From Alphaproteobacteria bacterium (GTDB lineage: Bacteria; Pseudomonadota; Alphaproteobacteria; Sphingomonadales; Sphingomonadaceae), in the NCBI GenBank assembly GCA_005883305.1, contig VBAC01000001.1, positions 2,356,001 through 2,420,000 of the forward strand: 64,000 nt of DNA. The letters are read 5' to 3'. The notes under the pieces were generated by a model, which did no database searches, was not told where the DNA came from, and worked only from the letters and a program-made list of their open reading frames with translations. The position numbers and the translations under genes are program-made. Positions 13,167 to 26,226 of the stretch are shown here, one piece after another. Positions within the stretch are counted from its first letter, which is position 1; each line of letters begins with the position of its first letter.

Positions 13167-13415
13167 AGCCCGTACTCAATTGGCCCGGGCGGTTTTCGTT
13201 TGATTCACAGAGTCATCCCGGCGAAGGCGCACCCCGCAAAGTAGTACTTTGCGGGGACCCCGAAGGCCGGGACCCATGAACACGGTCTTCGAGGTGAAGC
13301 GCGATCGCCGCCGGGAGCCTCTCGACCACTTCGGTTCATGGGCCCCGGCTTTCGCCGGGGTGACTCCCCCTGAGTTGCAGCGACACCCGACTTCCTGATT
13401 GAGTCCGGATCCTAG
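13163..13415. repeat. MITE-like palindromic element, copy 1, with nested 25-bp palindrome
   Basis: A 253-bp non-coding element between holA and parB. Read in reverse complement, it aligns along its whole length with 32265-32474: shared ends, shared GTCATCCCGGCGAA palindrome arms and shared spacer. It begins at the holA stop TAG and ends in CTAG. Relative to the other copy it has about 40 extra bp inside one arm, including a perfect palindrome at 13232-13256 with 12-bp arms (CCCCGCAAAGTA) around a single G. No reading frame of note and no transposase, so it would have moved in trans. Confidence 0.85.
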
Positions 13416-13449
13416 TTCCGCCGGGCCACGTGCCCCGCACGCGCCCCGA

Positions 13450-14343
13450 CTAAAACTTGTCGCCGGAAAGCCGCTGGCAGATCATGTCGAGCTGGTCGAG
13501 GCTCGAATAGGCGAGCGCGACTATGCCTCCCTGCGGGCTGTGCCGGATCGCGACCTTGAGGCCGAGCATGTCGCCGAGCTGCCGCTCTAGCGCGGCAATG
13601 TCGGTGTCGCTGCCCTTATATTCGATCGGCGCTTGGCGCGGCTTCTTCGCCTTGCCGGCGCGGGCCAGCTTCTCCGCCTCGCGCACGGAAAGGCCGCGGC
13701 GCACGATCTCTTCGGCCAGGGCCTCGGGATTCTTGGCGGTGATCAGTGCGCGCGCATGGCCCATGCTCAGCTGCCCGGTGCCGACCATGATCTGCACGCT
13801 GGCAGGAAGATCGAGCAATCTCAACAGGTTGGCGACATGGCTGCGCGACTTGTGGACGATCCGGCCGAGCTCTTCCTGGGTGTGCCCGTAATCCGCGACC
13901 AGCCGCTGATAGGCCTGTGCCTCCTCGATCGCGTTGAGGTCCTGGCGCTGGATATTCTCGATCAGCGCGATCTCGAGCGTTTCTTCGTCCGAGAAGTCCC
14001 GGACGATCGCCGGAAGCTCGTGCAGCTGCGCCCGCTGGGCGGCCCGCCAGCGGCGTTCGCCGGCGACGATCTGGAAGCGGTGGCCGTGCGGGCGGACGAC
14101 GATCGGCTGGATCACGCCGCGGGCCTGGATCGATTCGGCGAGCTCGGCGAGCGCCTCTTCCTGGAAGATTCGCCGCGGCTGGCCCGGGTGCGGCTCGATG
14201 CTCGCCACCGGGATCATCTGCACCGAACCCTGCGCATTCTCGCCGCCGCGCACGGGCGCCTCCACGGCGACCTCCCCGAGCAGCGAAGAGAGGCCGCGCC
14301 CGAGGCCCGAGGGGCGCTTTCTCGCAGGCAGGGGGTCGCTCAT
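13450..14343 (-). CDS. parB: Chromosome-partitioning protein ParB
   Basis: CTPase clamp that loads at parS and spreads along DNA to build the centromere complex. The 297-residue protein has the N-terminal ParB/Srx domain with the arginine-rich box GERRWRAAQRA near residue 97, followed by the helix-turn-helix (TQEELGRIVHKSRSHVANLLRL) that recognises parS, and a C-terminal dimerisation segment ending in the LDQLDMICQRL helix. Its start overlaps the parA stop (ATGA). Two parS sites lie 1.4 and 3.3 kb away. This is a chromosomal system by neighbourhood, not a plasmid remnant. Confidence 0.96.
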   Translation of the reverse strand: MSDPLPARKRPSGLGRGLSSLLGEVAVEAPVRGGENAQGSVQMIPVASIEPHPGQPRRIFQEEALAELAESIQARGVIQPIVVRPHGHRFQIVAGERRWRAAQRAQLHELPAIVRDFSDEETLEIALIENIQRQDLNAIEEAQAYQRLVADYGHTQEELGRIVHKSRSHVANLLRLLDLPASVQIMVGTGQLSMGHARALITAKNPEALAEEIVRRGLSVREAEKLARAGKAKKPRQAPIEYKGSDTDIAALERQLGDMLGLKVAIRHSPQGGIVALAYSSLDQLDMICQRLSGDKF

Positions 14344-15125
14344 GCCGCTTCCTTCTCCTTCTTGGGCAGGCGGGCGATCAGTTCGCGGGCCAGCGCCATA
14401 TAGGCTTCGGAGCCCGGGCAGCGATGATCGTAGATCAGCGCGGGCACGCCATGGCTCGGCGCTTCGGAGAGCCGGACGTTGCGCGGGATGACCGTGTCGA
14501 ACACCACCTTGCCGAGACAGGCCCGAACGTCCTCCGCCACCTGTGAGGAAAGGTTGTTGCGCTTGTCGTACATGGTCAGCGCCACTCCAAGGATCGAGAG
14601 CTCCGGATTGAACCGTGCGCGGATCCGCTCGACCGTCTGCAGCAACTGGCTAAGCCCTTCGAGCGCGAAGAATTCGGCCTGGAGCGGGACGAGGATCGAA
14701 TTGGCGGCGATCAGGGCGTTGACCGTGAGAAGGCCGAGCGACGGCGGGCAATCGATCAGGCATACATCCCAGCGCAGGTCGGCCGAGCCGTCCAGCGCGG
14801 TGTCCAAACGGTGGGTTCTTCCTTGTAATTCAATGAGTTCGATCTCCGCGCCGGAAAGATCGACGGTTGCCGGGATGACGTCCAGACGGGGGATCGAGGT
14901 CGGCACGACCGCCTGCTCGATCGTGCACCGCCCGGTAAGCAATTCGTAGCTCGAGCTGCCGCGCTCGGCTTGGCCGATGCCCATGCCGGTGGAAGCGTTG
15001 CCCTGCGGATCGAGATCGATCAGCAGCACTCGGCTTCCCGTCGCTGCCAGCGCAGTCGCGAGGTTGATCGCCGTGGTGGTCTTCCCCACGCCGCCCTTCT
15101 GATTGGCAACCGCGATCCGGATCAC
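14340..15125 (-). CDS. parA: Chromosome-partitioning ATPase ParA
   Basis: Deviant-Walker ATPase whose nucleoid gradient pulls ParB-parS complexes to the pole. The 261-residue protein begins [18 protein letters not shown]10 is the signature lysine and K15 the Walker lysine. Other motifs are DLDPQGNASTGMG and VCLIDCPPSLGLLT. The start is GTG at 15123-15125, overlapping the rsmG stop, and the stop overlaps the parB start, so rsmG-parA-parB is one transcript. It lacks the N-terminal extension of plasmid type Ia ParA proteins. Confidence 0.97.
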   Translation of the reverse strand: MIRIAVANQKGGVGKTTTAINLATALAATGSRVLLIDLDPQGNASTGMGIGQAERGSSSYELLTGRCTIEQAVVPTSIPRLDVIPATVDLSGAEIELIELQGRTHRLDTALDGSADLRWDVCLIDCPPSLGLLTVNALIAANSILVPLQAEFFALEGLSQLLQTVERIRARFNPELSILGVALTMYDKRNNLSSQVAEDVRACLGKVVFDTVIPRNVRLSEAPSHGVPALIYDHRCPGSEAYMALARELIARLPKKEKEAA

Positions 15126-15763
15126 TTGGGCTTCTTCCTTCCAGCCTTGCGCCGAACGCCCTCGGCAATGATGATCTGCGCGTCGGCATCGGTCACGCTC
15201 GGTTCGAGCCGGAAGCTACCCTGCCACGACGGATCGAGCGCCGCCAGTTCGGACTCGGCGTTTATGCCCTTTGGAAGCAGCCAGATGCTCTTATTTGTGG
15301 AAAATCCTGTGCCCAACTCGAGCAGGCGGCCCAGCGGCGCGAAGGCGCGAGCGCTGATGACGTCGAACGGACGGGGCGCAATGCGTTCCGCCTTCGCCGC
15401 GACCACCTCGACTCGGACGCCCAGCGCTTCGGCGGTTCGGCTCAGGAATCCGGCGCGAAGCCGGCGTTCCTCCACCAAGGTGACGGGTCCTTGATGCAGC
15501 AGGGCGGCAATCATGCCCGGAAAGCCCGCCCCGGTGCCCAAATCGAGCCAGGTCGAATCCCGGGCGGGAACGAATCGCAGCAACTGCGCCGAGTCCGCTA
15601 TGTGCCGAAGCCACATATGGCCAACGCTGGCTCGGGCAACGAGGTTCTGGCGCTCATTTTCCTCCCGCACGAGCGCCGCGAACCGGTCGAGGCGCGCCAT
15701 TGTTTCACGTGGAACATCCAACGCCGATTCGACCCAGGCGCGAGCCTCTTCTTCGCTCTTCAT
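15122..15763 (-). CDS. rsmG: 16S rRNA (guanine527-N7)-methyltransferase RsmG
   Basis: Methylates G527 of 16S rRNA; loss gives low-level streptomycin resistance in many bacteria. The 213-residue protein contains the SAM-binding motif [13 protein letters not shown] near residue 78 and the RSRA-like stretch ISARAFAPL further on. Residues about 17-21 read VPRET, encoded by a parS site (15701-15716), a recurrent feature of rsmG (gidB) genes next to parAB. Start ATG overlaps the mnmG stop. Confidence 0.95.
15701..15716. other. parS: parS site inside rsmG
   Basis: TGTTTCACGTGGAACA matches the 16-bp bacterial parS consensus, which is nearly palindromic around CACGTG; one base differs between the half-sites. 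It lies in the 5' coding part of rsmG, where it encodes VPRET. With parAB adjacent and a second site 1.9 kb away, it is very likely a genuine ParB-binding centromere site. Confidence 0.93.
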
Positions 15764-17608: not shown

Positions 17609-17624
17609 TGTTCCACGTGGAACA
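17609..17624. other. parS: parS site between mnmG and mnmE
   Basis: TGTTCCACGTGGAACA is a perfect 16-bp palindrome and an exact match to the strongest bacterial parS form. It lies in the short gap between mnmE and mnmG, 1.9 kb from the second site and about 7.5 kb from the predicted origin. Confidence 0.95.
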
Positions 17625-19215: not shown

Positions 19216-19914
19216 ATGCCCAACATAGCGATCGACACGCTGGGCGGCGACGGCGCGTTCGGCGCCTGGCTGGCCGAGCCTGAAGGAAGCCCGCGCGGCG
19301 CCGTGGTCGTCATCCAGGAGATTTTCGGGGTCAACGAGGGCATCCGCCGCAAGTGCGAGCATTGGGCGGCCCTCGGCTATGTCGCGCTGGCGCCCGACCT
19401 GTTCTGGCGGCTCGAGCCGGGCGTCGAGCTCGATCCCGACCAGCCCGAGCAGTTTCAGCAGGCGCTCGGCCTGATGCAGAAATTCAATCAGGACAATGGG
19501 ATAAGAGATATCGAGGCAAGCATTCGAGCGGCTCGGGCGCGGCTGCCCGAAGGCGGCAAAGTGGGCTGCGTCGGCTATTGCCTCGGCGGCCGGCTCGCCT
19601 TCATGACGTCAGCGCGAACCGACATCGACGCCTCGGTCGGCTATTATGGAGTCGGCCTCGAGGGGCTGATGAGCGAGAAGCACGCCATCGCCCGCCCGCT
19701 CATGCTCCACATCGCCGGCGCCGACCATTTCGTGACTCCCGACAAGCAGGCGATGATCCACGACGGTCTGGACGACCATCCGAAAGTTACCCTCTACGAT
19801 TATCCGGGCGAGGATCACGGATTCGCCGCCGAGATGGGCAAGAGGCGCAGCGGCAACGCCGCGATGCTCGCCGACAGCCGCACCGAAGCCTTCTTCGCCG
19901 AGCATATCGGCTAG
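19216..19914 (+). CDS. Dienelactone hydrolase-family protein
   Basis: An alpha/beta-hydrolase of 232 residues. The nucleophile elbow is GYCLGG (Cys near residue 121), with the acid and base in GADHFVTPDK and GEDHGFAAE. This Cys-Asp-His triad is characteristic of carboxymethylenebutenolidase. IQEIFGVNEGIRRKCEHWA near residue 37 is the conserved glutamate region. True dienelactone activity belongs to chloroaromatic degradation; here no such genes are nearby, so a general ester hydrolase role is more likely. The ATG at 19216 follows GTGGAGG; a GTG four codons upstream is less likely. Its stop abuts the quinone oxidoreductase start. Confidence 0.88.
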   Translation: MPNIAIDTLGGDGAFGAWLAEPEGSPRGAVVVIQEIFGVNEGIRRKCEHWAALGYVALAPDLFWRLEPGVELDPDQPEQFQQALGLMQKFNQDNGIRDIEASIRAARARLPEGGKVGCVGYCLGGRLAFMTSARTDIDASVGYYGVGLEGLMSEKHAIARPLMLHIAGADHFVTPDKQAMIHDGLDDHPKVTLYDYPGEDHGFAAEMGKRRSGNAAMLADSRTEAFFAEHIG

Positions 19915-20886
19915 ATGGAGCGCTACCGCCTTGTCTTTCGCCGCACCGGCGGGCCCGAGGTGATCGATCGCGAGCCGCTCGGTGCGCTCACGCCGGGTCC
20001 GGGCGAGGTGCTGATCCGCCACGAGGCGATCGGCCTCAACTTCATCGACACCTACCACCGCTCCGGCCTCTATCCGCTGGCGCTCCCCTCCGGCCTCGGC
20101 AGCGAGGCCGCCGGGATCGTCGAGCAGGCCGGCGACAAGAGCGGATTCGCACCGGGAGAGCGGGTCGCCTACGCGCTTGCGCCGCCCGGTGCCTACGCCA
20201 CGCACCGCCTGATCGCGGCCGAGCGGCTGGTTCGGCTGCCGGACGGCATCGATGCCGAAATCGCCGCAGCCGCGATGCTGAAGGGCTGCACGGCCGAGAT
20301 GCTGATCGAACGTTGCGCCAAGGTGCAGCCGGGCGACTGGGTCCTGGTCCACGCCGCCGCCGGCGGAGTCGGGTCGATCCTTGTGCCGTGGCTGAAGGCG
20401 ATCGGCGCCAGCGTGATCGCCCATGCCGGGTCGCAGGAGAAGGCGCGAATCGCCGCCGATCTGGGTGCCGATCACGCCCTTTCCTGTACTTTCGACGAGC
20501 TCGCGGCCCAGGTGAAGGCCGTCAGCGCCCACGGCGTCGCCTGCGTCTTCGACGGCATCGGCGCGGCGAGCTGGGCGGCCTCGATGGCTTGCCTGAGACG
20601 GCGCGGACTGATGATCAGCTTCGGCAATGCCTCGGGCCCGGTGCCGCCGCTGAGCCCGCTTGAGCTGGCGCGCGGCGGGTCGCTGTTCCTGACCCGGCCG
20701 ACGCTGGCCGACTATGTCGCCGATCCGGCGGAGTTGCAGGCTTCGGCGGCGCGCCTGTTCGCGATGATCGGATCGGGCGCGGTGCCGATTCGAATCGGCG
20801 CCCGCTTCCCGCTCGCCGATGCCGCCGAAGCGCACCGCGCGCTCGAGGCGCGCCAGACCACGGGATCGACCCTGCTGATCCCCTGA
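19915..20886 (+). CDS. NADPH:quinone oxidoreductase (zinc-free MDR family)
   Basis: A 323-residue medium-chain dehydrogenase of the Qor/zeta-crystallin type. It has the GroES-like N-terminal domain with GLNFIDTYHRSGLYP, the NADPH-binding loop VHAAAGGVGSILVPW, and ends with the usual AHRALEARQTTGSTLLIP. The zinc ligands of alcohol dehydrogenases are absent, as expected for the family. Probably reduces quinones or reactive carbonyls. The ATG follows directly after the hydrolase stop (TAGATG), so these two are an operon. Its TGA is immediately followed by the convergent terC stop. Confidence 0.9.
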   Translation: MERYRLVFRRTGGPEVIDREPLGALTPGPGEVLIRHEAIGLNFIDTYHRSGLYPLALPSGLGSEAAGIVEQAGDKSGFAPGERVAYALAPPGAYATHRLIAAERLVRLPDGIDAEIAAAAMLKGCTAEMLIERCAKVQPGDWVLVHAAAGGVGSILVPWLKAIGASVIAHAGSQEKARIAADLGADHALSCTFDELAAQVKAVSAHGVACVFDGIGAASWAASMACLRRRGLMISFGNASGPVPPLSPLELARGGSLFLTRPTLADYVADPAELQASAARLFAMIGSGAVPIRIGARFPLADAAEAHRALEARQTTGSTLLIP

Positions 20887-21534
20887 TCAGATTGGAAGAT
20901 AGTGGAGCACGCCGACCTCGCGGTCGACGACGCCGTCGTAGATCATCCGCCCGGCGACCCAGACGATGACCGCGAGCCCGATCCAGGCAATCCAGCGGTA
21001 GCGATCGATATATTTGGCGATGTAGTTGGCCGCGACGCCCATCAGGGCGACGGACATGATCAGGCCGCCAACGAGCACCCAGGGGTGCTCGCGCGCCGCG
21101 CCGGCGACCGCAAGCACGTTGTCGAGACTCATCGACACGTCGGCCAGGGCTACCGCCCAGGCGGCCGCGGCGAAGCTCTTCGCCTTGCGGATGCCGGAAC
21201 GCTCGTCGCCCTCGATCTCGCCCGCCCCGGACGACTGGCCGTCGTGCCTGAGCTCGCGGAACATCTTCCAGGCGACCCAGAGCAGCAGCAGGCCCCCGGC
21301 GAGAATGAGGCCGATGACCTGGAGCAGCTGGGTCACCAGCAGCGCGAACAGGATGCGCAGGACCAGCGCCGCGGCGATGCCGATCAGGATGACCTTCTTG
21401 CGCTGAGCGTCGGGGAGGCCGGCGGCGAGCGCTCCGACGACCACCGCATTGTCGCCGGCGAGGACGAGATCGATCAGCAACACCTCGGTGAGAGCGGCGA
21501 AACCGCCAGTCGTCAGCAGCGCCGCCAGGTCCAT
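20887..21534 (-). CDS. TerC-family integral membrane protein, paralogue 1
   Basis: A 215-residue protein with about seven transmembrane helices. The family signatures are LIDLVLAGDNAVVVGALAAGLP near the N-terminus and LADVSMSLDNVLAVAGAAREH in the middle; the paired GDN and LDN aspartates line a putative ion path. TerC proteins (Alx, YkoY, MeeF types) are linked to manganese export, alkaline response and metal loading of secreted enzymes. Lies 10 bp downstream of a close paralogue on the same strand. A yybP-ykoY manganese riboswitch was looked for upstream of the pair and not seen. Confidence 0.9.
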   Translation of the reverse strand: MDLAALLTTGGFAALTEVLLIDLVLAGDNAVVVGALAAGLPDAQRKKVILIGIAAALVLRILFALLVTQLLQVIGLILAGGLLLLWVAWKMFRELRHDGQSSGAGEIEGDERSGIRKAKSFAAAAWAVALADVSMSLDNVLAVAGAAREHPWVLVGGLIMSVALMGVAANYIAKYIDRYRWIAWIGLAVIVWVAGRMIYDGVVDREVGVLHYLPI

Positions 21535-21544
21535 CGAAAGGGTC

Positions 21545-22192
21545 TCAGATCAACAGGTGCAGGATGCCGTAATGCTCGTCCACCACGCCGTCATAGACCA
21601 TCCGCAGCGAGACGTAGAGGATCATGAGCAGGCCGCCCCAGGCGATCCAGCGGTAGCGCTGGACGAGCTTGGCGACGAGGTTGGCGGCGAGGCCCATCAG
21701 GCTCACCGACAAAGCGAGGCCGATGAACAGGACCGCGGGATGGTCCCGCGCCGTCGCAGCCACCGCCAGCACGTTGTCGAGGCTCATCGACAGATCCGCG
21801 AGCGTGACCTGGATCGCCGCTTGGAGGAAGGACTTGCTGCGGGGCGGGCCCTCGATCGCCGGAGTGTCGGGATCGTCGACCGCCCCGGGCGGCGGAGCGT
21901 GCCTGAGCTCGCGGTACATGTTGTAGGCGACCCACAGCAGCAGCAGCCCCCCGGCCAGGACCAGGCCCGTGAAATGGAGCAGCCTTGTGGCGATGAGCGC
22001 GAAGGCGATTAGGAAGACCAGCGCCATGCCGACGCCGAGCATGATCACCCGCTTGCGCTCTTTCTCGGGAAGCCCAGAGGTCAGCGTGCCCATGATCACG
22101 ACGTTGTCGCCGGCCATGGTGAGGTCGATCAGCACCACCTGGCCCAGAGTGACAAGGCCGGCGGTGGTGAAAATGTCGGCGAAATTGAACAT
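21545..22192 (-). CDS. TerC-family integral membrane protein, paralogue 2
   Basis: Also 215 residues, with LIDLTMAGDNVVIMGTLTSGLP and LADLSMSLDNVLAVAATARDH at positions equivalent to its neighbour. Residues around the helix ends differ clearly (loop with PPPGAVDDPDTPAIEGP versus SSGAGEIEGDERSG), so the pair is an older tandem duplication rather than a recent one. Possibly the two form a heteromeric transporter, as has been suggested for YceF/YkoY-type pairs; this is inference. Starts 16 bp downstream of the rho stop and may be co-transcribed with rho. Confidence 0.9.
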   Translation of the reverse strand: MFNFADIFTTAGLVTLGQVVLIDLTMAGDNVVIMGTLTSGLPEKERKRVIMLGVGMALVFLIAFALIATRLLHFTGLVLAGGLLLLWVAYNMYRELRHAPPPGAVDDPDTPAIEGPPRSKSFLQAAIQVTLADLSMSLDNVLAVAATARDHPAVLFIGLALSVSLMGLAANLVAKLVQRYRWIAWGGLLMILYVSLRMVYDGVVDEHYGILHLLI

Positions 22193-23612: not shown

Positions 23613-24068
23613 TCAAAACGGCTTCACGATCACCAGCACGACGATCAGCACGACCGCGATCCCGGGCACCTCGTTCATGATCCTCAGCGCCCGCCCGCTG
23701 ACGGGGCGAAGGCCCTGCTCCAGCTTCTTGCCGTAATCGATCATCCAGCCGTGATAGCCGGATAAAGCGATCACGATCGCGAACTTGGCGAGGAACCAAT
23801 ATTGGGTCCAGGCCTGGATCGTCCAGGCGAGCAGAAGGCCGAACGTCCAGACGAGGATCATCGCCGGGGTGATGACGATCTTCCTCAGCTTCTTTTCGCG
23901 CTCGATCCAGCGCTGCTCCTCGTCCGAGCCGGGGGCCGATTCCTGGTGATAGACGTAGAATCGCGGAAGCATGAACAGTCCCGCGATCCAGAAGATCACG
24001 AAGATCAGATGGCCGGCCTTGAGCCATGCGTAGGTCACGATCAGGATCGATCCGACTTGAAAGGTCAC
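23613..24068 (-). CDS. hemJ: Protoporphyrinogen IX oxidase, HemJ type
   Basis: A 151-residue membrane protein with four or five hydrophobic helices. It converts protoporphyrinogen IX to protoporphyrin IX, the penultimate haem step. Family features: YAWLKAGHLIFVIFWIAGLFMLPRFYVYH near the N-terminus, with the conserved histidine in AGH, and LARKFAIV-like and YHGWMIDYGKKL segments later. Start is GTG overlapping the hemE stop (GTGA), so hemE and hemJ form a coupled operon. Neighbouring hemE strongly supports HemJ over generic UPF0093. Confidence 0.9.
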   Translation of the reverse strand: MTFQVGSILIVTYAWLKAGHLIFVIFWIAGLFMLPRFYVYHQESAPGSDEEQRWIEREKKLRKIVITPAMILVWTFGLLLAWTIQAWTQYWFLAKFAIVIALSGYHGWMIDYGKKLEQGLRPVSGRALRIMNEVPGIAVVLIVVLVIVKPF

Positions 24069-25093
24069 CGGCGCACCAAAGCGAGCAGCTGCTCGACGTG
24101 GGTGATCGGCGTTTCCTTGATGATTCCGTGGCCGAGGTTGAAGACGTGCGGCCTCCCCGACAAGCTAGATAGGATGCGATCCACCGCGCTTTCAAGCGCA
24201 GCGCCGCCGGCGAGCAAGGCGAGTGGGTCGAGATTGCCTTGGACCGGAAGATCCGGCGGCAATTCTCGGGCCGCCCATTCGGGATCGATCGTCTCGTCGA
24301 GGCCCAGCGCATCGACGCCGGTCTCGCGCGCATAAGTGGCGAGCTTGGCCCCGGCGCCCTTGGGGAAGCCGATCAGCGGCGTTTCGGGATGGCGCTCCTT
24401 GAGCGCCGCGACGATCCGCGCCGTCGGGGCGATCACCCATTGTTCGAACTGCGCGGGGGCAAGGCTTCCGGACCACGAATCGAACAGCTGAACGGCATCG
24501 GCGCCGGCGCGGATCTGGCCGGACAGATAGTCGATCGTGACCTCGGCGATGGCCTCGATGATGGCTTCGAAGGCATTCGGATCGGCATAGGCATAGCCGC
24601 GCGCTTCGGCTTGGTCGCGGCTTCCCTGTCCCGCCACCATATAGGTCGCGACCGTCCACGGGCTGCCCGCGAAGCCCAGCAAAGTCGTTTCGGGCGCCAG
24701 CATCGCCTTGACGTTCTCCACAGTCCGATAAATCGGCTCGAGTCGCCTGGGAACGCGCTCCAGCGCGGTCAGCGCAGAGTCGATCAGCGGCGGTGAAAGG
24801 CGCGGTCCTTCGCCCGCCTCGAAGCGCAAATCCTGGCCGATCGCGTGGGGCACGATCAGGATATCGGAAAAAAGGATCGCCCCGTCGAAGCCGAAACGGC
24901 GCACCGGCTGGAGCGTGATCTCCGCCGCAGCTTGCGGATCGTATGCCAGCGCGAGGAAGCCCCCCTTTTCCGCCCGCAGCTTCCGATACTCGGGAAGGTA
25001 GCGCCCGGCCTGGCGCATCAGCCATATCGGAGGAACGCTTTGTTTTCCGCCCCTTAGGACGTTGAGAAGAGGCTTGGAGATATCGGGCGTCAA
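24065..25093 (-). CDS. hemE: Uroporphyrinogen decarboxylase
   Basis: Removes four acetate carboxyls from uroporphyrinogen III to give coproporphyrinogen III. The protein has WLMRQAGRYLPEYR near residue 22, DGAILFSDILIVPHAIGQ with the catalytic Asp, GFAGSPWTVATYMV, and the terminal NLGHGIIKETPITHVEQL. Open frame continues to 25288, but homologues start just before KPLLNVLRGG. A TTG at 25091-25093 with GGAGCGGAG eight to nine bases upstream gives 342 residues, the usual length. The upstream extension lies in predicted origin DNA and contains no family sequence. Confidence 0.94.
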   Translation of the reverse strand: MTPDISKPLLNVLRGGKQSVPPIWLMRQAGRYLPEYRKLRAEKGGFLALAYDPQAAAEITLQPVRRFGFDGAILFSDILIVPHAIGQDLRFEAGEGPRLSPPLIDSALTALERVPRRLEPIYRTVENVKAMLAPETTLLGFAGSPWTVATYMVAGQGSRDQAEARGYAYADPNAFEAIIEAIAEVTIDYLSGQIRAGADAVQLFDSWSGSLAPAQFEQWVIAPTARIVAALKERHPETPLIGFPKGAGAKLATYARETGVDALGLDETIDPEWAARELPPDLPVQGNLDPLALLAGGAALESAVDRILSSLSGRPHVFNLGHGIIKETPITHVEQLLALVRR

Positions 25094-25404
25094 GGCGGGA
25101 AGCTCCGCTCCCTTATCTATTATATTAGATTCTAAGAGAGTCTGTTGAAGGTGATAGTAGGGAGATGAGCGGGGTTTATTGGCTCCCACGGATTTTGCCA
25201 ACAGCTTGACGGCGCGAGACTCGCGGGTTTGCGCGGAGTCGCGCGCGCCTTCCCCGCAATTCACAGGCGCCGTGTGGGTTTTTTCCATTGTGCGCGCCGC
25301 TGTGGGCGAATCGATGCGCGACTCTGGACCAAAGCTTTCCTTGAGTTTGCCCCGAGCCTTCCGCTAGCGATTTCCCCATATTTTTCCACAGGGGCGCGGG
25401 GCGC
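25094..25404. other. oriC: Predicted chromosomal replication origin (oriC), Caulobacter-type position
   Basis: The largest functional gap in this part of the window, 311 bp between hemE and the PPSR gene, the exact position of Cori in Caulobacter. It holds an AT-rich tract at about 25111-25140 (22 of 30 bases A or T), a second short T-rich tract at 25372-25386, a DnaA box at 25382-25390 and six GANTC sites (25128, 25138, 25218, 25236, 25308, 25320). GC content is otherwise high. Transcription points away on both sides. No gene is evident; the in-frame extension of hemE is explained by chance. Experimental or skew confirmation is lacking. Confidence 0.8.
25382..25390 (+). promoter_or_regulatory. 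DnaA box
   Basis: TTTTCCACA fits the relaxed DnaA-box consensus TTWTNCACA. It is the only full match seen in the predicted origin; CAATTCACA at 25256-25264 and the TGTGGG motifs at 25274 and 25301 are partial matches that could act as weak boxes. Confidence 0.55.
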
Positions 25405-26226
25405 GTGCAGCAGCTTCACCTGCATCTTCTCTCGGACTCGACCGGCGAGACGCTGGACATGGTCGCCAAGGCCTGTCTCGCCCAGTTCGACGGAGTCGAG
25501 GCGCTGCGCCACCTGTGGCCGATGGTGCGCTCCGAGGGCCATCTCGACCGCGTGCTGGACGATGTCGAGACCCGGCCGGGGCTGGTCCTCTACACCGTCG
25601 TCAATCCGACGATCAGGCGCGAGCTCGAGCGCAAATGCCGGCAGCGCAAGATCAACGCGGTCTCCGTCCTCGATCCGGTGATCGACGCTCTGGCGGCGGT
25701 CAGTGGGGAGGCTGCGAAAGGGCGCGCCGGCCGCCAGCACGCGCTCGACGCCGCTTATTTCGCCCGGGTCGACGCGATCCAGTTCACCATCGCCCATGAC
25801 GACGGCATCGGATCGGAGAATTGGGAGGAAGCGGACATCGTCCTGGCGGGCGTGTCGCGAACGTCGAAGACACCGACGAGCATCTATCTCGCCAATCGCG
25901 GCTACAAGGTGGCGAACATTCCCTTGGTCCCTTCATCGCCGCCCCCCCCGAACCTCTTCCAGCTCAAGCATCCGCTCGTCGTCGGGCTCACGGCCAACCC
26001 CGAGCGGCTGATCGCCATCCGGCGCAACCGCCTGCTCTCGCTCAACCAGGCGCCGGAGACCGACTATGTCGACATGGAGGCGGTCAACGCCGAGCTCGCC
26101 TTCGCCCGCCGGATGTTCGCCGATCAGGGCTGGCCGGTGATCGACGTCACCCGTCGTTCGATCGAAGAAACCGCGGTGGCGATCATTCGGCTATGCACCG
26201 AGCGGCTCGAGGCGTCGCGGGCGTGA
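25405..26226 (+). CDS. PEP synthase / pyruvate phosphate dikinase regulatory protein (DUF299, PPSR)
   Basis: Bifunctional serine/threonine kinase and phosphorylase that switches PEP synthase or PPDK off and on using ADP and Pi. The 273-residue protein starts HLHLLSDSTGETL and has the P-loop-like AGVSRTSKTPTSIYLANRGYKVAN near residue 150, both diagnostic of DUF299. Start is GTG at 25405. The partner dikinase is not in the window. Immediately right of the predicted origin, equivalent to the first gene (RP001/CC_0001) beside Caulobacter Cori. Overlaps maf by 4 nt. Confidence 0.94.
   Translation: MQQLHLHLLSDSTGETLDMVAKACLAQFDGVEALRHLWPMVRSEGHLDRVLDDVETRPGLVLYTVVNPTIRRELERKCRQRKINAVSVLDPVIDALAAVSGEAAKGRAGRQHALDAAYFARVDAIQFTIAHDDGIGSENWEEADIVLAGVSRTSKTPTSIYLANRGYKVANIPLVPSSPPPPNLFQLKHPLVVGLTANPERLIAIRRNRLLSLNQAPETDYVDMEAVNAELAFARRMFADQGWPVIDVTRRSIEETAVAIIRLCTERLEASRA

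Follow-up and report, generated by a model that had tools for sequence, protein, structure and literature searches.

The question raised by this locus is whether the gap between hemE and the PPSR/DUF299 gene (25094-25404) is the chromosomal origin of replication, as the initial annotation had proposed, and what the GANTC sites crowded into it might do. The window, by which we mean the whole stretch of 64,000 nt that was analysed, belongs to a genome whose nearest named relatives are Sphingosinicella (sphingomonads), and it was compared with the rest of that genome, with related loci and with other Alphaproteobacteria. With high confidence the gap is predicted to be a DnaA-dependent chromosomal origin (oriC), and the original proposal is supported by gene order, parABS, a polarity switch on the terminus side and conservation. 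Such a position is ordinary for Sphingomonadaceae and both the location and the kind of origin are already known: PMC4741004 places oriC near hemE, in agreement with the DoriC predictions for most Sphingomonadaceae, and cites Brassinga et al. for the gene cluster.

Gene neighbourhood and the terminus side

The gap had been described as 311 bp long, lying between hemE on the minus strand and PPSR/DUF299 on the plus strand, and this was confirmed by the Pfam matches of both neighbours, URO-D (7.8e-112) for the uroporphyrinogen decarboxylase gene hemE (24065-25093) and Kinase-PPPase (9.7e-95) for the kinase-pyrophosphorylase gene (25405-26226, GTG start at 25405). The TTG start of hemE at 25093, assigned from the reading frame, leaves 25094-25404 free of coding. 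A longer hemE beginning at the in-frame ATG at 25288 would reach into the gap, yet URO-D similarity starts only at residue 72 of that ORF.

The divergent orientation of the genes around the gap was likewise borne out. To the left, all on the minus strand, lie hemJ (UPF0093), rho, a pair of TerC genes, an ORF (19609-20835) that gave no Pfam match, mnmE, gidA, rsmG, parA and parB. To the right a maf-like gene comes first, with aroE, coaE and dnaQ after it, all of them on the plus strand; the NCBIfam matches of Maf and RsmG are both under their curated cut-offs, that of RsmG by a small margin. The two TerC-family membrane protein genes (20887-22192, minus strand), in the interval from mnmE to rho, are adjacent and equal in length at 215 aa, and a TerC ORF also stands beside rho in locus L060 of Sphingomonas vulcanisoli. 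The Caulobacter origin, according to the initial annotation, lies between hemE and the DUF299 gene, followed by maf, aroE, coaE and dnaQ.

A parABS system several kb from the gap, the arrangement that the initial annotation gives for Caulobacter, was found, with parAB and two parS-like sites all within 12 kb of it. The genes are parB (13450-14343, minus strand; TIGR00180 1.3e-58 and Pfam ParB domains) and parA (14340-15125, minus strand), the latter named from its Pfam AAA_31 match (1.3e-60) and its place beside parB. The parS-like sites are at 15701-15716 (one mismatch, 9.5 kb from the gap) and, between gidA and mnmE, at 17609-17624 (two mismatches, 7.6 kb from the gap).

Gene order was sampled in 142 genomes of the class, 90 of which had a PPSR match including the source genome, and 69 of the other 89 were taken. 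hemE was divergent from PPSR in 62 of these 69, the remaining seven having no hemE in the stretch. The PPSR match was absent in 52 of the 142 genomes, and the gene order is thus not universal or not always assembled.

FtsK KOPS motifs point to the terminus, and it is on this basis that the strand of GGGNAGGG was read. A switch was found near 1.0025 Mb of contig C1 of the source genome, from nine plus and no minus copies at 985-1002 kb to no plus and eight minus copies at 1003-1020 kb. A dif-like site with three mismatches (G000:C1:1002885-1002906) coincides with the switch and is likely the terminus. The dif pattern gave two matches versus one for a control pattern, and the second of them (three mismatches, 1.499 Mb) had no polarity switch. 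From the gap, at 2.381 Mb of C1, the dif-like site is 1.38 Mb away in one direction and 1.65 Mb in the other, roughly opposite, the longer distance assuming that contigs C2 (372.5 kb) and C3 (4.9 kb) complete the circle. Total counts of the KOPS-type motif were 419 forward and 423 reverse, those of the control 342 and 350. Motif polarity on the origin side was uninformative, with two plus and six minus copies just right of the gap, contrary to expectation, and mixed strands over 2.25-2.65 Mb. Cumulative GC skew of the window, for which a minimum at about 25.2 kb would have supported the proposal, reached its minimum near 20 kb, shallow and too weak to confirm an origin, and skew on the sampled arms was nearly flat (+0.0027 versus -0.0077); skew is therefore too flat to decide the origin position.

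Conserved elements within the gap

The gap was alignable as conserved non-coding DNA in 77 relatives among the best 80 of 565 matches, and this conservation in sphingomonads counts towards the oriC reading. The locus set comprised these best 80 and the window's own, 81 in total, with near kin over-represented. L060 and L071 (no hemE match) and L070 (long gap) were dropped, giving 78 aligned gaps including that of the window, and 62 after removal of close copies. Read from hemE towards a 16-nt core, the 78 aligned gaps show first an AT-rich tract and next a trinucleotide-like repeat whose last letters are often TAGTAGG or GTTGG; CGGGG-TTAT and the core TTGCCAACAGcTTGAC follow. Beyond the core, in the direction of PPSR, come a GANTC site, then TCCCC with ATCCACA at core+62 (the latter in 39 of 78), further boxes in both orientations, and a box between core+183 and core+188. 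The distance from core to PPSR ranges from 166 to 299, the middle 80% being 205-238. Repeats within the gap were limited to short two- or three-copy matches.

The AT-rich tract reported in the gap is real. At 25114-25145, the likely unwinding element, A+T reaches 75%, which is exceptional for the source genome, being attained by 0.006% of 97,712 windows of 32 bp (783 kb of the genome), for a tract that had been chosen by eye before the statistic; at the same position mean A+T is 68-76% in 60 sequences. Adjoining the tract is the DnaA-trio-like repeat TGTTGAAGGTGATAGTAGG (25143-25161, plus strand), a putative trio. In-frame WWG triplets between core-64 and core-38 averaged 2.77 versus 2.00 in shuffled sequences (z 7.6, 60 sequences, the shuffles ignoring relatedness), and the signal beside the AT-rich tract is weakened by the stretch from +140 to +166, which also gave about z 5, on both strands. 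The middle base of A/T-N-G triplets was T in 106, A in 90, G in 44 and C in 1, as counted in the WWG-richest frame, a choice that favours A and T, and TTG (73) exceeded TAG (57) among the triplets counted. Compared with L009, the repeat of the window is one triplet (3 nt) longer and the spacer that follows it 3 nt shorter.

A loose version of the BUS rule, our own, was defined as three A-centred triplets, a spacer of at most 16 and a box with at most two mismatches. Such modules were present in 25 of 62 sphingomonad gaps, where shuffling gave 5.7, and among the class gaps in 37 of 61 (13.2 after shuffling), and modules according to a strict version in 1 of 62 (0.1) and 2 of 61 (0.7), all shuffles ignoring relatedness and the figures serving as guides; the 61 class gaps are the 69 above minus seven without hemE and one with a 1.6-kb gap. 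The window's own gap falls outside the rule, since nowhere in it do three A-centred triplets have a box at up to two, nor at up to three, mismatches 16 bp away or nearer.

The DnaA box TTTTCCACA previously reported at 25382-25390 (plus strand, core+187) is real, with one mismatch, and is the only box with at most two mismatches in the gap of the window. As the sole box it carries little weight, because 1.5% of 15,430 windows of 311 bp hold at least one box at up to one mismatch, and 22% at up to two. Of the 78 sequences, 55 have a box at up to one mismatch between core+183 and core+188. The single box of the window is not exceptional in the family, since 23 of the 78 gaps likewise hold just one at this threshold; one gap had none, 33 had two, 15 three, five four and one five. 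Exact TTATCCACA was discarded as a genome-wide origin marker, with 10 copies versus 11 for the reversed control and none in the gap. The DnaA encoded by the source genome carries GGRDHTTVIHA in its DNA-binding domain, which we take to be the canonical DnaA DNA-binding motif.

The core itself, TTGCCAACAGCTTGAC (25195-25210, plus strand), was delimited by alignment and occurs at one place in the source genome at up to one mismatch. Its first 9 nt read TTGCCAACA exactly in 41 of 78 sequences and are near variants in most others. L040 reads TTATCCACA and L080 reads TTGTCCACA at these nine positions, and for this reason the core resembles a diverged DnaA box. The conserved element CGGGGTTTAT (25170-25179, plus strand) stands 25 nt before the core, with the same spacing in 60 of 78. 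At core+62, the place of ATCCACA in other gaps, the window has the degenerate DnaA box CAATTCACA (25257-25265, plus strand), a decay that leaves it with one box at up to two mismatches. In locus L060 (542-3001) hemE is missing, and rho and hemJ are followed directly by the trio, the core, the box and then PPSR, an arrangement that binds the conserved element to the locus rather than to hemE.

Two other roles for the core were tried and rejected. Read as a promoter, with TTGAC as -35, it has no conserved -10, and information is low at +33 to +39. Read as a family-wide signature, the core word was present at up to one mismatch in just 57 of 149 family genomes, and of eight such places examined, five adjoin hemE and PPSR and three do not. 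One family genome carries the same 145 bp, surrounding a core match with one mismatch, on both its contig C1 and its contig C2 (L197 and L198), and neither hemE nor PPSR lies close by; this duplicate is a repeat unrelated to the origin.

GANTC sites in the gap

Six matches to GANTC, the CcrM motif, lie in the 311 bp of the gap, at 25128-25132, 25138-25142, 25218-25222 (core+23), 25236-25240 (core+41), 25308-25312 and 25320-25324, and only one other 311-bp place reaches that number in 782,906 sampled bases of the source genome. The site at core+41 is position-locked: 75 of 78 sequences have a GANTC that falls between core+40 and core+42, with T (44) or G (31) as middle base. Another is found at core+13 in 37 of 78. 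The density of GANTC in the gaps (with short coding edges) was 14.86/kb versus 2.28/kb in the flanks and was higher in all 62 of 62 sequences. Trimmed gaps held 4.61 sites versus 1.20 expected under a first-order model, a 3.8-fold excess, and other words were enriched there too (AGNCT 2.5-fold, CTAG 1.8-fold and AGCT 1.5-fold). In the sampled source genome the hemE-PPSR gap was denser than each of 164 other gaps with a length of 150 bp or more, for which the figure was 3.52 GANTC/kb; this list was built from mechanical ORFs, and the origin gap itself was hidden from it by spurious ORFs. Second densest among the 164 was the gap downstream of parB (13167-13449), with four GANTC in 283 bp. A class-wide excess was considered and set aside, being slight (154 seen versus 119.3 expected in 61 gaps), and the dense array therefore looks like a family trait.

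CcrM is encoded in the source genome (best PDB match 6pbd, CcrMI, E 7.8e-152), as are DnaA and GcrA. GANTC carries m6A in Sphingomonas sp. AAP5 (PMC8067484), and over 99% of GANTC sites are methylated in Zymomonas (PMC8088579); by analogy with these two, the sites in the source genome, those of the gap included, are probably methylated too. The array might serve a methylation-linked control of initiation or of local promoters, and we consider the chances that it has some effect on initiation to be about even. A more specific proposal, that the Sphingomonadaceae origin is methylation-gated, with few good DnaA boxes (one in the source genome) and a frame of CcrM sites, one of them locked about 41 nt from the box-like core, retained so that CcrM methylation sets the time at which DnaA can reopen it, appears unlikely. 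A partial literature search, supplements aside, found no GANTC arrays in sphingomonad origins, no position-locked array and no 16-nt core.

As to mechanism, DnaA would bind the box beside PPSR together with weaker sites on the hemE side, among them probably the TTGCCAACA core, and would then spread along the trio-like repeats that adjoin the AT-rich tract; the tract would open and allow helicase loading; this order of binding and unwinding is modelled on Bacillus and Caulobacter. Departure of the fork would leave the CcrM sites hemimethylated, to be refilled later in the cycle, and the sites may in this way tune re-initiation or local transcription.

Alternative readings and known systems

The gap might be a divergent regulatory region only, with GANTC sites and core as parts of GcrA/CcrM-controlled promoters of hemE and PPSR, both of which start at the gap, and with oriC elsewhere. 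GcrA does act at promoters carrying GANTC (PMC8116508). This reading is nonetheless highly improbable, as L060 keeps the trio, the core and the box though hemE is missing from the stretch, TTGAC stands without a conserved -10 at promoter spacing, the layout of AT-rich tract, trio-like repeat and box is origin-like, and the gene order matches the known origin cluster. Hardly credible at all is an origin elsewhere, for instance near dnaA, a gene that marks origins in many bacteria; here dnaA (711.7 kb of C1) and the dif-like site are separated by about 0.29 Mb.

Far closer to the balance, at slightly less than an even chance, is the reading in which the gap is oriC and its GANTC sites work only via transcription of hemE and PPSR, not initiation. 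Initiation control is described as normal in Caulobacter lacking CcrM, which is dispensable there, and several GANTC lie in that origin too (PMC3973325); the action of GcrA at GANTC promoters (PMC8116508) also speaks for this reading. Against it stands the +41 site, whose offset from the core stays at 40-42 nt in 75 of 78 sequences while the distance from core to PPSR varies from 166 to 299, as does a GANTC density above that of each of the 164 other gaps. Over-expression of CcrM gives extra chromosomes in Caulobacter (PMC3973325), and in Agrobacterium CcrM is linked to ori2, with no obvious effect on ori1 (PMC11514494).

For the gap as predicted oriC, the position-locked CcrM site offers a single-site handle on whether an alphaproteobacterium couples origin firing to adenine methylation, a question with a negative answer so far for Caulobacter (PMC3973325) and for Agrobacterium ori1 (PMC11514494). 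Deviant trios are suspected by PMC8287927, and the trio-like repeats with a central T are candidates for them. The likely origin of the source genome is fixed, and the comparison yields a map of the sphingomonad origin with its core, its spacing, the trio-like repeats and the boxes.

The hemE/DUF299 neighbourhood is shared with Cori of Caulobacter crescentus, the Caulobacter side being that given in the initial annotation and the order class-wide. Few and weak DnaA boxes are likewise common to Cori, where they are of G- and W-type and accompanied by five high-affinity CtrA sites (PMC4468827), and so are several GANTC (PMC3973325). The predictions for Sphingopyxis and Sphingomonadaceae (PMC4741004) likewise place oriC by hemE and describe several putative DnaA boxes, which are conserved, along with a putative element for unwinding, whereas GANTC, trios or a core are not mentioned in the compared text. 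The BUS/DnaA-trio module (PMC8287927) is matched in part of the family, 25 of 62 by the loose rule, by the succession of AT-rich tract, trinucleotide repeat, spacer and DnaA box; it differs in that the window lacks a box placed according to the rule and that TTG (73) is commoner here than TAG (57). Finally, adenine-methylation sites packed into an origin are known from the Dam/SeqA-controlled oriC, where, as here, the methyltransferase is encoded in the genome, although it is CcrM here instead of Dam, and from the GANTC-rich repABC origins (PMC6090056, PMC11514494).
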